A stretch of 49,827 nucleotides of DNA from assembly GCA_012840485.1 (NCBI GenBank), contig DULG01000053.1, positions 1 through 49,827 of the forward strand. The letters run 5' to 3'. Shown here piece after piece: positions 1,604 to 38,294 of this stretch; within the stretch, counting starts at the first letter, position 1, and the number at the start of each line of letters is the position of its first letter. The notes under the pieces were generated by a model. It was not told the origin of the DNA and did no database searches. It worked only from the letters and a program-made list of their open reading frames with translations. This DNA is from Clostridia bacterium. GTDB taxonomy: Bacteria; Bacillota; Thermoanaerobacteria; Thermoanaerobacterales; Thermoanaerobacteraceae. A program made the translations under genes and the position numbers.

Positions 1604-3736
1604 ATGAAAGAGGTGATAATTATCACTCTCAATGAAAGAAGTAAACAAATTCTTATGAAACTTATTAATTCTAATGAGCCTGTAAAAATCTCTGACCTTG
1701 CAAAAATATTCAATGTAAGCAGCAGAACCATAAGGTACGACCTTGATGCAATTGATGAATTTTTAAAGTACAATAGTTTGCCACAATTGATACGCAAACC
1801 GAATGTAGGTGTGAAATTTTCTGAACTATTGGAACACAAAAACAAGGTTTTATCTCTCTTTGACAGTCTTACACCCTATTACTACAACTTATCGCAACAA
1901 GAAAGGGTAAACATAATACTCAGTGAACTTATACAACAAAGAGATTATATAACTATAAATAACTTGGCAGATAAATTGATGGTTTCAAGAAGTACCGTTA
2001 TAAATGACCTAAAAAGCGTAAGAAAATGGCTTATAGAACATGGACTTCAGTTAAAATCTACACCAAAGTATGGAATAAAAGTTATAGGGGATGAAAAACA
2101 ATTAAGAAGAGCTGCTGTAGAACTTTTAACAGAAACGCTTGACATTGATAGGGCTTTAGATATTGTAAAATCTCCGATGCATGGCCGAAATATTGGCGTT
2201 GATAAGCAAATTACAAAACTCTTCGAAGATATAGACATACCTTATATAGAACAATGCGTACAAATAGCAGAGAAAGAATTAGAAACTGTTTTTTCTGATG
2301 CGGCATTTTCTGGTCTTGTAGTACACATAGCAATAGCGATTAAGAGGATTCAACTAGGGAAAGACATAATTATGCCAAAAGAAGAATTAAAAGCTTTGGA
2401 AATTACAAAAGAATTTGCTGTCGCATCAAATATTGCAAAAATGTTGGAGGACCATTTTAAAGTTTCTATTCCTATTGATGAAATTGGCTATATCACTGTT
2501 CATTTACTTGGAAGCAATGTTACAAAAACACATCCTTATCCTAATGAAAACTGGGTTGAGTACCAACTTATTACAGAGAAAATTATACGAAATGTGAGTG
2601 ATAAAATAAATAAAGATTTATCAAGAGATAGGCAGCTTTTTGAAGGACTTTTAGATCACTTAAGACCCACGGTATATCGGTTAAAGCATGGACTCAAATT
2701 AAAAAACCCTATTTTAGATGAGATTAAGACAAACTATAGAGAACTTTTTGAAATAGTTAAAGAAAGTTTGAAACCTATAGAGGATTATACAGGAAAACTG
2801 CTAAATGAGGAAGAGGTAGGCTATTTCGCGATACATTTTGGTGCTGCAATTGAAAGATTAAAAGTAACTTCAGCCTCTAAACCAAATATTTTAGTTGTAT
2901 GTGGCACAGGTATAGGTACAGCAAAACTTCTTTCTTCCAGGTTACAATCAGTTTTTGATGTAAATATAGTTGATGCTGTTGCATATCATCAGGTGAAAGA
3001 TATATTAAAAGAAAAAAATGTAGATTTAATAGTATCTACTGTGCCAATTCAATTGGAGGGAATTAAAACCATTGAAGTAAATCCCCTTCTTACAGAAAAA
3101 GACATAGAATTATTAAAAGACTTTGTTATTAAACCTAAGGTGCAAGGGACAGTTATTGATGATTTAATAAAAATAATAGAAAAGCATTGTGTGATAGGCA
3201 ATCGTGAAAAATTAATAGAAGATTTATCAAAATTTTTAAATGTAGCATCATATGAAAATACGAGAGGAGTTGTACAACCAGTGTTAAAAGACCTTTTGAC
3301 GAAGGAGACTATAAAACTGAATGTTGAAGCAAAAGACTGGGAAGAAGCAGTGAGGATAGGAGGTGAGCTATTAGTTAAAAAAGGTTTTGCTGAACCTCAG
3401 TATGTTGAGGCGATGATAAACACTGTAAAAGAAATGGGGCCTTACATTGTAATTGCGCCAGGTATAGCAATGCCACATGCAAGGCCAGAAGCAGGTGCAA
3501 AAAAAATAGGCATGAGTTTAATCACACTAAAAAATCCTGTTAACTTTGGAAACAAAGAAAACGATCCAGTAAAAATTGTAGTTTCCCTCTGTGCAATAGA
3601 CCACTCATCACACCTTAAAGCCCTCACGGAATTGGTAGAACTTTTGGGGGATGAAGAGAAGGTAGAGATTATAAAAAATGCAAGAAATACTAAACAAGTT
3701 ATTTATTTAGTGAAGAGGAGGGATTCACTTGTATAA
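1604..3736 (+). CDS. PRD-containing PTS-regulated transcriptional activator (MtlR/BglG type) with EIIB and EIIA domains
   Basis: Multidomain regulator of up to 710 aa. Two helix-turn-helix domains lie at about 10-65 and 85-145 (motifs SSRTIRYDLD and SRSTVINDLK). Two PTS regulation domains follow (about 190-300 and 310-415), then an EIIB-like domain with CGTGIGTAK (C433) and an EIIA-fru/mtl domain with MPHARP (H625). In this family, phosphorylation of these sites couples activity to sugar transport. The gene heads and overlaps a PTS operon that has no separate EIIA gene. The start is uncertain: the 1604 ATG has no ribosome site, while a good one (AGAGGTG, 1609-1615) lies just inside and would serve ATT/ATC at 1619-1624. 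Either start keeps all domains. Confidence 0.9.
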   Translation: MKEVIIITLNERSKQILMKLINSNEPVKISDLAKIFNVSSRTIRYDLDAIDEFLKYNSLPQLIRKPNVGVKFSELLEHKNKVLSLFDSLTPYYYNLSQQERVNIILSELIQQRDYITINNLADKLMVSRSTVINDLKSVRKWLIEHGLQLKSTPKYGIKVIGDEKQLRRAAVELLTETLDIDRALDIVKSPMHGRNIGVDKQITKLFEDIDIPYIEQCVQIAEKELETVFSDAAFSGLVVHIAIAIKRIQLGKDIIMPKEELKALEITKEFAVASNIAKMLEDHFKVSIPIDEIGYITVHLLGSNVTKTHPYPNENWVEYQLITEKIIRNVSDKINKDLSRDRQLFEGLLDHLRPTVYRLKHGLKLKNPILDEIKTNYRELFEIVKESLKPIEDYTGKLLNEEEVGYFAIHFGAAIERLKVTSASKPNILVVCGTGIGTAKLLSSRLQSVFDVNIVDAVAYHQVKDILKEKNVDLIVSTVPIQLEGIKTIEVNPLLTEKDIELLKDFVIKPKVQGTVIDDLIKIIEKHCVIGNREKLIEDLSKFLNVASYENTRGVVQPVLKDLLTKETIKLNVEAKDWEEAVRIGGELLVKKGFAEPQYVEAMINTVKEMGPYIVIAPGIAMPHARPEAGAKKIGMSLITLKNPVNFGNKENDPVKIVVSLCAIDHSSHLKALTELVELLGDEEKVEIIKNARNTKQVIYLVKRRDSLV
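1613..1626. promoter_or_regulatory. Perfect 14-bp palindrome at the start of the regulator gene
   Basis: GTGATAATTATCAC is a perfect palindrome overlapping the ribosome-binding site and first codons. It could be an autoregulatory operator. The core resembles Fur-type boxes, but no regulator can be assigned. Confidence 0.4.
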
Positions 3737-4034
3737 AGCGTTAGTAGCATGTCGAGCAGGTATGGGATCAAGTCTTTTATTAAAAATTAAGGTCGAGCAA
3801 GTTATCAAGGAAAATGGTTATCCCATTAAGACAGAGCATGGAAACTTAGATTCATTGATTGGATTTACAGGGGATTTACTAATTACAATGGAAGACTTAG
3901 CAGAGAAATTGAAGGATAAAGTTCCGTATGTTATAGGGATTCGAAACATTATTGATAAAGATGAAATCAAAGAAAAAATTGAAGAGAATCTAGAATTTGA
4001 AAATAATAAACAATTAAGGAGGAGAGACAAATGA
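3729..4034 (+). CDS. PTS EIIB component, UlaB/SgaB type
   Basis: A small cytoplasmic EIIB of 101 aa. The phospho-acceptor is C8 in ACRAGMGSS, the P-loop typical of the ascorbate/galactitol EIIB group. It would receive phosphate from an EIIA and pass it to sugar bound by the EIIC encoded next. The start is TTG at 3729 behind GAGGAGGG, overlapping the regulator end by 8 bases. The end overlaps the EIIC start by 4 bases, so translation is probably coupled. The C-terminal tail (LRRRDK) is charged and variable. The substrate is not determined. Confidence 0.85.
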   Translation: MYKALVACRAGMGSSLLLKIKVEQVIKENGYPIKTEHGNLDSLIGFTGDLLITMEDLAEKLKDKVPYVIGIRNIIDKDEIKEKIEENLEFENNKQLRRRDK

Positions 4035-5308
4035 TAGAAGCACTATTAGGTCAGGTAAGAAATACTGCTTTAATTGTAGGTTTAGTTGCATTCATCGGCT
4101 TGGTATTGCAAAAGAAATCTACAACTGAAGTGATTACTGGAACCACTAAAACAATTTTAGGTTTTATGATCTTTAATATTGGTACTGCCGCCTTATCTAG
4201 AGTAGTTAATAATTTTGCAGAATTATTTAATGCTGGATTTGGTATTGAAGGGGTTACTACACAAGTTGAGGTAGCAACAAGTCTAGCGATGAATAAGTAT
4301 GGTAGTGAAGTTGCCTTAGTCTTTGTTTTAGGATTTATATTTAATTTAATTATTGCGAAATATACAAGGTTTAAAGCAATATTCTTAACAGGACAGCACT
4401 TCTTATATTTTGCAGCTGTTCTTACATTAATATTTATTGCACTAGGATTTTCTCCGGCAGTTGTGGTTATTGCTGGTGGTTTAGTTTTAGGTTTCTGTGC
4501 AGCAGCTTTACCAATGTTAGCTCAACCATATATGGAGAAAATTACTGGAAGCAAAGACTTTGCGATGGGACATTTCAACCTTATTGGTTATACTTTCGCA
4601 GGTTGGGTTGGTAAATTTTTTGCGAAATCTAAAGAAAAAGAAGGCAAAAAAGAAATTAAAATGCCAGAATTCTTTGAATTATTTAGAGATTTCGTATTCT
4701 CTGTAGCGTTATTTATGGTTGTTTTATTCTACGTTGCAGTGATTGCCTGTGCAGTGAAGGGTCAATTAGATCTTGTTAAAAAAATGGCTGGTAATGACAT
4801 TTGGTTTATTTATCCATTCTTACAAGGCTTACAATTTGCAGCAGGTATGAGTGTATTAATTTATGGTGTTCGTCAATTTATTGCTGAAATTACTGCAGCA
4901 TTCGTTGCGATTTCAGAAAAATATATTCCTAATTCAATTCCAGCAGTTGACTGCCCAGCGGTTTTTCCATACGCTCCAAATGCTGTAGTTATTGGATTTG
5001 TTGGTTCACTATTGGGTGGATTGTTCGGGATGTTCTTGATGGTTATGTTTAAGAGTCCAGTTATCATGATTCCAGCTGCAGGTATTTGTTTCTTCTCAGG
5101 AGGAACAAGTGGAGTCTTTGGATATGCTTATGGTGGATGGAAAGGTGCTTTAGTTGGGTCATTCTTAGTCGGTATTGCACTGGTAGGACTACCATTAATT
5201 CTTTATCCAGCATTTGCTAAACTAGGAATTGCTACCGCTTCATTCCCTAACATTGACTATAATATTGTCGGAGCATTAATTTATAAGATCTTAAGTTTAT
5301 TTAAATAA
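4031..5308 (+). CDS. PTS EIIC permease, UlaA/SgaT (ascorbate-like) family
   Basis: Polytopic membrane protein of 425 aa with about ten or more hydrophobic segments, and family signatures such as TGQHFLYFAAVLT and the conserved stretch around VDCPAVFPYAPNA. It imports a sugar or sugar acid through the membrane with phosphorylation by the EIIB encoded at 3729. UlaA takes ascorbate in enteric bacteria, but this family includes other substrates, and the aldolase-containing operon points to a sugar acid or modified hexose. The ATG follows GGAGGAGAG. A strong hairpin, not a gene, separates it from the next ORF. Confidence 0.87.
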   Translation: MIEALLGQVRNTALIVGLVAFIGLVLQKKSTTEVITGTTKTILGFMIFNIGTAALSRVVNNFAELFNAGFGIEGVTTQVEVATSLAMNKYGSEVALVFVLGFIFNLIIAKYTRFKAIFLTGQHFLYFAAVLTLIFIALGFSPAVVVIAGGLVLGFCAAALPMLAQPYMEKITGSKDFAMGHFNLIGYTFAGWVGKFFAKSKEKEGKKEIKMPEFFELFRDFVFSVALFMVVLFYVAVIACAVKGQLDLVKKMAGNDIWFIYPFLQGLQFAAGMSVLIYGVRQFIAEITAAFVAISEKYIPNSIPAVDCPAVFPYAPNAVVIGFVGSLLGGLFGMFLMVMFKSPVIMIPAAGICFFSGGTSGVFGYAYGGWKGALVGSFLVGIALVGLPLILYPAFAKLGIATASFPNIDYNIVGALIYKILSLFK

Positions 5309-5347: not shown

Positions 5348-5450
5348 TAGGAGGTTAGTGTGAAAGTGAAATAGTGAAATTTGGGCACACCAAAAAAGGC
5401 ACCAAACAAAGCTGCCCAAAGCCAAATAAAAGCGAAAGGATGTGAGTAAG

Positions 5451-6221
5451 ATGAAAGACATGAAAGACACTAATAAAAAATATGTAGGTTTATTTACAAA
5501 ATTAATTACTAATCCCGCACTATATCTAATGAGTAAAAATGCAAATATGGATTTCATCTTCTATGATTGTGAACACGGTGTCATTGGCAAAGAGAAATTA
5601 CATGATTTAATTTTATTTGGTAATAATGTAGGTGTACCAACTTTTGTAAGAGTGGCAGAACTTTCACGAAAAGAAGTATCACAGGTTTTAGATTGTGGGG
5701 CTACTGGAATTATGGTACCGATGATTGAGTTAAAAGAAGAAGCAGAAAAACTTGTTTCATGGAGTAAATATCCACCAATTGGACAACGAAGCTATTCAAG
5801 TGGTGCGAATACAAACTATGGACCAAGTGGTGGGCATAAGGAAAACATGGAAAGATTGAACCAGCAAACAGTTACGATCGCTCAAATTGAGACCTTAAAA
5901 GGTGTTGAGCATTGTGAAGAAATTGCTTCCATCCCAGGATTAGATGCGATTATTGTAGGGCCTGTTGATTTGAGCATTTCCTTAGGTAATGTTGGAAACA
6001 TTATGGATCCGAATGAGTTAGAAGCAATAGAGCGAGTAATACAAGCATGTAAGCAGAATGATTTGATGTTTGGAATTATTGGCAGCGAAAAAATCCTAGA
6101 ACACTTTAAGGAAGATGTAAATTATTGGATTTCTGCCACAGATTATAACATTATTCGAGATGGTATTGTGAATGCTGTAAATCGTTTTAAAGACGTATAT
6201 GGGGGTGATTCAAATGAGTAA
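5451..6221 (+). CDS. HpcH/HpaI-family class II aldolase
   Basis: A 256-aa protein of the HpcH/HpaI (2-keto-3-deoxy sugar-acid/4-hydroxy-2-oxoheptanedioate) metal-dependent aldolase family, expected to cleave a 2-keto-3-deoxy acid to pyruvate and an aldehyde. Supporting motifs are DCEHG near the N terminus, the GATGIMVPMI strand, IETLKGVE (metal-binding Glu) and VGPVDLSISLG. ATG 5451 was chosen because AAAGGA lies 10 bases before it; GTG 5442 in the same frame is too close to that site. Five of seven arginines visible in the gene are CGN, unlike most genes here. The operon context fits catabolism of a PTS-imported acid sugar. Confidence 0.82.
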   Translation: MKDMKDTNKKYVGLFTKLITNPALYLMSKNANMDFIFYDCEHGVIGKEKLHDLILFGNNVGVPTFVRVAELSRKEVSQVLDCGATGIMVPMIELKEEAEKLVSWSKYPPIGQRSYSSGANTNYGPSGGHKENMERLNQQTVTIAQIETLKGVEHCEEIASIPGLDAIIVGPVDLSISLGNVGNIMDPNELEAIERVIQACKQNDLMFGIIGSEKILEHFKEDVNYWISATDYNIIRDGIVNAVNRFKDVYGGDSNE

Positions 6222-6816
6222 GCAATCCTTAGAAAACTTCTGGGAGAATTTTCTAATCTCTGTCTGCAACATAATTGATGATCTTTCTACTCAAAATCTA
6301 GAGAAAATAGCCGATTTTATCTTCAATTTTATTTCCAAAGGACATCGACTACATTTTACGGGAGTCGGTAAATCAAGTTATGTTGCACGGTATATGAGTG
6401 CACTTTATTCTTCAATTGGAATTCCTTCATATTTTTTAGATTGTACAGAAGCGGTCCATGGGAGTTCTGGTCAAGTAGTAGAAGGAGATATCGTAATTGC
6501 AGTTTCCAATAGTGGAGAAACTGAAGAACTTAAATACACAGTAAAGACTTTACGAGACAATAAAGCTTATGTTATAGGAATTAGTAAAAGTGAAAAATCC
6601 TGGCTGGCTAAGAATTCGGATTATCATTTAGTTTCGAAGGTTCATAGTGAAGGTGATTATTTAAATAAACCACCAAGAGCATCAGTTGTAGGTCAAATTT
6701 TAGTTTTACAGTCGCTATCAATACTTCTTCAAGATAGAAGAAATCTAAGTTTAGAGGAATATGTTAAATGGCATCCAGCAGGAAAAATCGGAGAGAGTAT
6801 AAAAACTAAAACATAG
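6214..6816 (+). CDS. SIS-domain phosphosugar isomerase-like protein
   Basis: A 200-aa single SIS domain. The phosphosugar-binding pieces are FTGVGKSSYVARYM near residue 50, SGETEE (near 105) and a C-terminal KWHPAGKIGES that recalls KpsF/GutQ arabinose-5-phosphate isomerases; no CBS domains follow. It would isomerise or bind a ketose/aldose phosphate made by the upstream PTS. ATG 6214 follows a GGGGGTG ribosome site and overlaps the aldolase by 8 bases. Half of its arginine codons are CGN (CGA, CGG), like the upstream aldolase. The precise substrate is unknown; 6-phospho-3-hexuloisomerase-like activity is another option. Confidence 0.8.
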   Translation: MSKQSLENFWENFLISVCNIIDDLSTQNLEKIADFIFNFISKGHRLHFTGVGKSSYVARYMSALYSSIGIPSYFLDCTEAVHGSSGQVVEGDIVIAVSNSGETEELKYTVKTLRDNKAYVIGISKSEKSWLAKNSDYHLVSKVHSEGDYLNKPPRASVVGQILVLQSLSILLQDRRNLSLEEYVKWHPAGKIGESIKTKT

Positions 6817-6838: not shown

Positions 6839-7048
6839 GGAAATGTGTGTAGATAATGAATTATTAGTTTTAACGCGCATATTGCTTAAAAGATCTATTA
6901 TTCGCTTAGAATTAGTAAATCCGGGGTATTTGGGGATGCAACATTAGCTACTAGAGAGAAGGTCGAATATTTACTGGATTCAATGGTAGATTTTATAATA
7001 GATAAAATAACGAAAATTATTGATGAAATAGATAGGAAAATTGAATGA
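6839..7048 (+). pseudogene. Decayed creatininase-family amidohydrolase (C-terminal remnant)
   Basis: From about 6890 one frame reads KIYYSLRISKSGVFGDATL and continues ATREKVEYLLDSMVDF before a stop at 7046-7048. The SGVFGD.TLAT.EKG pattern is the C-terminal end of creatininase-family proteins, some of which act as lactonases or amidases on sugar-like substrates. A TAA precedes the segment and the N-terminal two thirds are missing. It sits in operon order after the SIS gene and overlaps the next remnant by ATGA. Confidence 0.65.
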
Positions 7049-7420
7049 TTCATTCGTTAAATATTGATGTAATCAAGACTGCCAGCAGGTAGGATAAACT
7101 AGCCATACCCGCAGCTATGACGCCGACAGAGATATTGACTGCATATGAAAATGGTGCAGAGATAGTAATGGTATTTTCTGCTGGCTTATTAGGTCCGTCG
7201 TATTTTAAAGAGGTGTTGGGACCATTATTTCATATACCACTGATGGTCACAGCAGGGATAACAATAAATAATGTCTTTGAGTTTAAAAAGTAGGTATTAA
7301 ATTGTTTAGCATCGGTTCTGCACTTTTAGATAGTGAAGCTATTAAGGCTGTGATTTTGATAAGATAAAGGATATAGCAAGAAAATTTGTAATTGCTCTAG
7401 CGAATGATATTTCCAGTTGA
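7045..7420 (+). pseudogene. Decayed KDPG/KHG aldolase (eda-like)
   Basis: Translation in three successive frames restores the C-terminal half of a 2-keto-3-deoxy-6-phosphogluconate aldolase. Frame 1 gives DVIKTASR, a TAG (7090-7092), then IPAAMTPTEILTAYENGAE and GPLFHIPLMVTAGITINNV, ending at a TAG (7291). A second frame from 7290 gives SIGSALLDSEAIKA, and a third from 7355 gives FDKIKDIARKFVIALA. One nonsense codon and two frameshifts make it inactive. The Schiff-base lysine of the family (in the VKVFPA motif) reads as VMVFSA, so even the active site has changed. Confidence 0.85.
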
Positions 7421-37961: not shown

Positions 37962-38294
37962 ATGGATCTTGAACAAATTGTTTTCACAATCATATCCCAT
38001 GCAGGGAATGCACGAAGCAATTCTTTTGAAGCATTAAAGCATGCGCGTGAGGGTAATTTTGAAGAGGCCGAAAAGTGGTTAAATAAAGCAAGTGAAGAGC
38101 TTTTAGAAGCTCATCACGTTCAAACGGATATGATACACAAAGAAGCGGCGGGAGAAAAACAGGAAGTTACACTTCTTTTAGTACATGCAGAAGACCATCT
38201 TATGAATGCAATTCTTGCAAAGGAATTGATAACGGAAATGATTGACTTGTATAAAGTTATTTATCAAACAAAGGGGGCAACTTTTAATGTTTAA
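37962..38294 (+). CDS. celC: PTS EIIA, lactose/cellobiose family
   Basis: A 110-aa helical EIIA. The active-site histidine lies in VHAEDHLM (H75 or H79 nearby). It accepts phosphate from HPr and gives it to the EIIB encoded at 37632. The ATG follows TAGGAGG. It overlaps the GH4 gene start by 8 bases. Confidence 0.95.
   Translation: MDLEQIVFTIISHAGNARSNSFEALKHAREGNFEEAEKWLNKASEELLEAHHVQTDMIHKEAAGEKQEVTLLLVHAEDHLMNAILAKELITEMIDLYKVIYQTKGATFNV

Follow-up and report, generated by a model that had tools for sequence, protein, structure and literature searches.

In the phosphotransferase system (PTS), enzyme IIA (EIIA) takes phosphate from HPr and passes it to enzyme IIB (EIIB). The L-ascorbate PTS of E. 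coli (UlaABC, TC 4.A.7) has a free EIIA, UlaC, and is controlled by a repressor which is not of the PTS regulation domain (PRD) type. The system described here belongs to a Clostridia bacterium (genome G000, a draft of 2.65 Mb, 100% complete) which, to judge from its gene content, is probably heat-loving, and its regulator, EIIB and permease (EIIC) genes occupy positions 1604-5308 of contig C32, which is referred to below as the window (49,827 bp). Its EIIC and EIIB are of the same type as those of UlaABC, but unlike E. coli ula, the operon has a PRD regulator and no free EIIA.

A closer counterpart is the UlaR2/ula2 system of Streptococcus pneumoniae (SP2131-SP2127; spd_1961-1957), which likewise consists of a PRD activator with helix-turn-helix (HTH), EIIB and EIIA domains, an EIIB and a UlaA-type EIIC, without a free EIIA. 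UlaR2 was shown to activate the ula2 operon, while the pneumococcal UlaR was described as having PRDs and an EIIB domain (PMC4324149). In pneumococcus the activator gene is co-transcribed with those for EIIB and EIIC, and the gene layout in our genome is alike. The associated enzymes differ: the transketolase halves of ula2 are replaced by an HpcH-type aldolase and a SIS-domain isomerase, although the transketolase type is present in two genomes of the same genus (G017 and G018). Moreover, in contrast to ula2, our regulator is native to the genus while the EIIB and EIIC are foreign. The use of a regulator EIIA for transport was suggested by Bidossi et al., 2012, for pneumococcal SP2129-2131; their list of systems lacking an EIIA does not include the ascorbate PTS SP2036-7-8 (PMC3302838). 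No published test of phosphate donation by a regulator EIIA was found in the literature searched, most subscription journals being outside its coverage.

The regulator itself resembles MtlR of B. subtilis and Geobacillus, with which it shares the domain order: two HTH regions (Pfam HTH_11 and Mga), two PRDs, PTS_IIB and PTS_EIIA_2. Mannitol systems possess a separate transport EIIA (MtlF or the EIIA domain of MtlA), which distinguishes them from our operon. The phosphorylatable histidines in both PRDs, the cysteine in the EIIB-like domain and the histidine in the EIIA-like domain, together with the domain order, mark the protein as a putative MtlR-type PRD activator. Its six sites, H241/H300/H352/H411/C433/H625, are spaced similarly to H230/H289/H342/H399/C419/H599 of B. 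subtilis MtlR (PMC8560693) and are invariant in 15 aligned regulators.

The idea of a dual role for a regulator EIIA is thus already published, and our operon is a member of a known, little-examined kind; what we add is a comparative test, an ascorbate operon without UlaC, and cassette exchange behind a fixed regulator-EIIA. The operon is probably a UlaA/UlaB-type PTS in which the PRD activator also carries the transport EIIA, with phosphate relayed through H625 to C8 of the EIIB. The genes and domains concerned are as follows.

1604-3736, + strand: PRD transcriptional regulator of 710 amino acids with C-terminal EIIB-like and EIIA domains (Pfam; start codon uncertain)
2885-3109, + strand: EIIB-like domain of the regulator, residues 428-502, with C433 (PF02302, PTS_IIB)
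3293-3715, + strand: EIIA domain of the regulator, residues 564-704 (PF00359, PTS_EIIA_2; E 6e-39, 133.8 bits vs cut-off 27)
3729-4034, + strand: UlaB-like EIIB with a TTG start and phosphorylation site C8 (PF02302; foreign cassette)
4031-5308, + strand: UlaA-type EIIC permease (PF03611, NF006919; foreign cassette)

An earlier note on this DNA described an operon with EIIB and EIIC genes whose only nearby EIIA is at the C terminus of the PRD regulator, and both the Pfam domains and the gene inventory bear this out. H625, which lies in the IAMPHARPE stretch (codon 3476-3478), is the active-site histidine of the regulator EIIA, and residue 8 of the EIIB is a cysteine; the note had named both residues, and alignment confirms them. 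The Pfam hit and the closest solved chains, 3oxp (IIA component, E 9e-33) and 2oq3 (a cryptic mannitol IIA), are decisive sequence evidence for an EIIA fold of the regulator C terminus. Its best model match is UlaC (142.6 bits, below the cut-off of 187). The EIIB, whose TTG at 3729 overlaps the end of the regulator gene (stop ending at 3736), is matched best among NCBIfam models by PRK09548 (EIIBC ascorbate), below cut-off. The EIIC is assigned to EIIC-GAT (Pfam, E 4e-103) and passes the NCBIfam model for PTS ascorbate IIC, NF006919 (414 bits vs cut-off 380). A UlaA-type EIIC with a UlaB-type EIIB is a mark of an L-ascorbate-type PTS (TC 4.A.7), and a regulator-EIIA directly before them without a free EIIA is one of a UlaR2-type operon; our operon shows both. 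No EIIA gene is found near EIIB and EIIC, the next genes encoding the HpcH-type aldolase and the SIS isomerase (Pfam). None of UlaD/E/F/G lies beside the operon, where the catabolic enzymes of an L-ascorbate system are thus missing.

Since the earlier note called for a search for a free UlaC-type EIIA elsewhere, the entire genome was searched with profiles for the PTS_EIIA_2 family, and four such domains were detected, including that of the regulator. One is a free EIIA (C22:22606) in a fructose operon beside FruK and EIIBC. The remaining two, a LevR-type regulator and a free EIIA (C15:28482), are parts of a single galactitol-like operon that has an EIIB and an EIIC to itself; the latter is the sole other EIIC of the same Pfam family in the genome. 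On a UlaC-type profile built from 54 free EIIAs adjoining UlaA/UlaB genes (G024 left out), the regulator EIIA reaches 181 bits, compared with 43-61 bits for the remaining domains; the genome thus has no dedicated free UlaC-type EIIA in its 2.65 Mb. The same result was obtained by a genome search of a congener, G025, and in three examined regions of G034, from the sister genus, every free EIIA found sits in the operon of another system. In both G025 and G034 the EIIA of the mtl regulator is weak (18-19 bits on the same profile), and in G025 a free EIIA lies next door. HPr and enzyme I (EI) are both encoded in our genome. A second PRD regulator is present on contig C8 (L015, 2402-10208), with an EIIB-like domain and no EIIA_2 detectable by profile search; judging from the genes, its cluster resembles a PTS operon for a sugar acid or amino-sugar acid.

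The distribution of regulator-EIIAs and free EIIAs was surveyed in 80 loci of named genomes found by EIIC, together with the relatives' loci, each neighbourhood being scored for EIIA. Where a regulator-EIIA gene occurred within 900 bp upstream of EIIC ("directly upstream"), a free EIIA was absent in 32 of 35 loci, while otherwise a free EIIA was present in 46 of 52. The three exceptions to exclusion are L080, with a neighbouring second PTS, L124, with a frameshifted regulator, and L086, the one real case. The active-site histidine is present in all surveyed EIIAs, and the HARP motif distinguishes them: it occurs in 37/41 sole regulator EIIAs and 37/43 free EIIAs, and in none of the 10 regulators coexisting with a free EIIA (Fisher 8e-8, uncorrected for relatedness). 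Median scores on the UlaC-type profile are 178 for sole and 141 for coexisting regulator EIIAs (P 2e-5), and in the EIIA tree the coexisting cases occupy several parts. Drift is expected of an EIIA that no longer has to serve transport and not of one that is still needed, and this expectation holds. The sole-EIIA regulator arrangement is common in Bacillota and is not peculiar to our genome.

The comparison within the genus gives the other part of the evidence. The regulator is found in 8 of 10 genus genomes, its seven orthologues being 76-88% identical to ours at the protein level; the region upstream is conserved in these 8 genomes, and the locus is syntenic behind the same aminotransferase gene wherever the contig extends far enough. 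The transport genes behind it vary greatly (31-39% identity to ours for EIICs, 26-31% for EIIBs). In G025 the cassette is a complete L-ascorbate set of UlaD, UlaE, UlaF, UlaG lactonase, EIIB and EIIC, from which UlaC is missing, the free EIIAs of G025 lying in fru, gat and mtl operons. Transketolase cassettes occur in G017, G018 and G021, while the others are of the creatininase/SIS/KDPG-aldolase (G024), SIS (G020) and FmdA-like (G023) types; labels without a hidden Markov model result were assigned by reading the sequences. In the sister genus, regulators of G026, G028, G029 and G034 are 93-97% identical, and their EIICs 32-46%, except for one pair at 94%. Between the genera, some cassettes are closer than the regulators (EIIC 85% vs regulator 70% for G018-G028; 79% vs 69% for G025-G034), which is consistent with cassette exchange. 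No free EIIA occurs at loci with an orthologous regulator in the genus and the sister genus, except for the split regulator of G024. There (L050, 2980-3110), loss of 1 bp in an A-run separates the EIIA of the regulator into its own open reading frame (ORF); this was not used as evidence of a natural separation, since the loss may be a sequencing error. The extra IIA reported in ula2 of pneumococcal strain G54 (PMC4324149) may be a similar case.

We infer the following phosphotransfer steps and direction of control. Phosphate would pass from phosphoenolpyruvate through EI and HPr to H625 of the regulator EIIA, from there to C8 of the stand-alone EIIB, and on to the sugar in EIIC. The phosphorylated H625 would also modify C433 in the EIIB-like domain, keeping the regulator inactive while no substrate is drawn, and the PRD histidines H241, H300, H352 and H411 would be set by HPr. 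With one EIIA serving both C8 and C433, uptake would drain both: substrate entry would remove phosphate via the EIIB, C433 would become dephosphorylated, and the regulator would activate its own operon. By analogy with the known biochemistry of PRD regulators, transport flux would be a direct signal for the regulator. If this is true, a transcription factor is an obligatory enzyme of the transport chain under its control, with sensing and flux inseparable, and many Bacillota PTS operons seemingly without EIIA are accounted for.

The transport role which the earlier note proposed for the regulator EIIA is the best explanation of the free-EIIA exclusion, the HARP retention and the ascorbate operon of G025 lacking UlaC, and these comparisons of sequences support the dual role well. 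Several observations weigh against it. The surveyed loci are phylogenetically related, so the P-values overstate their independence and are indicative only. One locus of the same kind, L127, has no EIIA nearby at all; therefore, the absence of a free EIIA alone is no proof of donation by the regulator. In addition, the two free EIIAs of the same family in our genome, from the fructose (C22:22606) and galactitol-like (C15:28482) operons, could cross-talk, phosphorylating the EIIB and leaving the regulator EIIA a purely regulatory function. In B. subtilis such cross-talk by glucose-type EIIAs has been documented, EIIA-deficient PTSs being fed by EIIAs of other systems (PMC6148471), and it has been assumed for clostridia (PMC4706839). 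However, both candidate donors represent other subfamilies according to their scores on the UlaC-type profile, and cross-talk explains neither the retention of HARP solely in sole-EIIA regulators nor the fact that the loci without a free EIIA are just those with the regulator gene immediately before EIIB, which makes this source of phosphate unlikely.

It is also conceivable that the transporter does not function, the EIIB and EIIC having been imported recently without their own EIIA into a dead or decaying operon. The cassette is indeed foreign, its closest relatives own an EIIA, and gene debris lies downstream of it (6890-7284). Yet each of the four genes, for EIIB, EIIC, aldolase and isomerase, is a full-length open frame with conserved sites at ~70% DNA identity to relatives, and because of this the cassette cannot be regarded as freshly arrived junk; the sole-EIIA organisation, moreover, recurs in many surveyed Bacillota loci, and we consider a dead operon improbable. 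Slightly less credit still is due to the supply of phosphate by an EIIA from another fold family (EIIA-Glc, Lac, Man or Gut). The genome-wide EIIA search covered PTS_EIIA_2 only, and the window itself carries an EIIA-Lac gene (37962-38294) in a cellobiose-type operon, identified by sequence and context, but in surveyed loci where a free EIIA stands beside EIIB and EIIC of our type, that EIIA is of the EIIA_2 family.

In the explanation favoured here, the promoter, regulator and EIIA form one fixed unit, and because of this the EIIB/EIIC/enzyme cassettes can be exchanged behind it, our genome being an instance, with a cassette whose nearest relatives bring a separate EIIA. With somewhat less assurance than for the phosphate relay, we favour the view that this unit is a conserved "dock" for unrelated cassettes, the regulator acting as a general phosphate donor and sensor, so that newcomers would need no EIIA of their own and would come under flux control at once. 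The genus presents one regulator-EIIA facing several EIIBs of ~25-42% mutual identity, which bears on the permissiveness of EIIA-EIIB recognition and on the domestication of PTS cassettes after horizontal transfer. The flanking and cassette features are listed below.

1527-1605, + strand: putative promoter/operator region (alignment of 8 genus genomes; blastn homology with relatives begins at 1505-1530)
3655-3728, + strand: junction zone (blastn and junction alignment)
5442-6221, + strand: HpcH/HpaI-type aldolase of the cassette (PF03328; also adjoins EIIC in L065-L067)
6199-6816, + strand: SIS-domain sugar-phosphate isomerase, KpsF-like, of the cassette (PF01380; TIGR00393 below cut-off)
6890-7284, + strand: decayed creatininase-like and KDPG-aldolase-like fragments (tblastn, 44-49% identity)

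DNA homology to genus relatives stops at 3654-3664, within the last part of the EIIA, and homology to the Erysipelotrichia-type operons L065-L068 starts at 3711-3730, at the EIIB start, with 70-73% DNA identity (blastn). Among named loci, the 11 closest (L065-L075, mostly from Erysipelotrichia and Atopobiaceae/Olsenella relatives) have EIICs 66-76% identical to ours in amino acids. A free EIIA gene precedes EIIB in all 11, and several also have, downstream of EIIC, a PRD-EIIA regulator of their own; the window holds neither a free EIIA of this cassette type nor a second PRD-EIIA regulator. On the simplest reading of these sequences, the cassette became attached to the regulator-EIIA native to the genus, and its own EIIA was left behind or lost; the actual donor is outside the sampled loci.

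In most pairs of species with different cassettes, homology ends +178 to +188 bp past His625. Even where the regulators of two species are ~90% identical in the rest of their length, the last 20-25 residues of the EIIA change abruptly (window 3654-3711, L045-L052); candidate causes are relaxed selection and recombination at the 3' end. From the point where homology ends, a C-terminal tail travelling with the cassette could be suspected, but tails do not track the type of cassette (that of G025 and G034 is the same, and their tails differ). An origin of our tail from the free EIIA of the donor was rejected, as it is unlike the tails of L065-L068.

Some minor observations concern the history and expression of the locus. 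The fragments at 6890-7284 sit between the SIS gene and an alcohol dehydrogenase; both families are present in cassettes of relatives (G024, G035/G036), and the fragments may be what is left of an earlier, displaced cassette. In G018, a 472-amino-acid ORF on the opposite strand lies between regulator and cassette (L047, 6240-7658) and is absent from the near-identical locus of G017; from its sequence it is probably an insertion sequence transposase. In the alignment of 8 genomes, the region 1527-1605 contains ACATTT...AAATGT, which resembles an inverted repeat, as well as an AT-rich stretch similar to a -10 element. G021, G023 and G024 lack the regulator ATG at 1604, and a Shine-Dalgarno-like AAAGAGGTGAT followed by ATT or ATC is kept in 8/8 genus genomes near window positions 1604-1622, so that translation of the regulator may begin at a non-AUG start codon.

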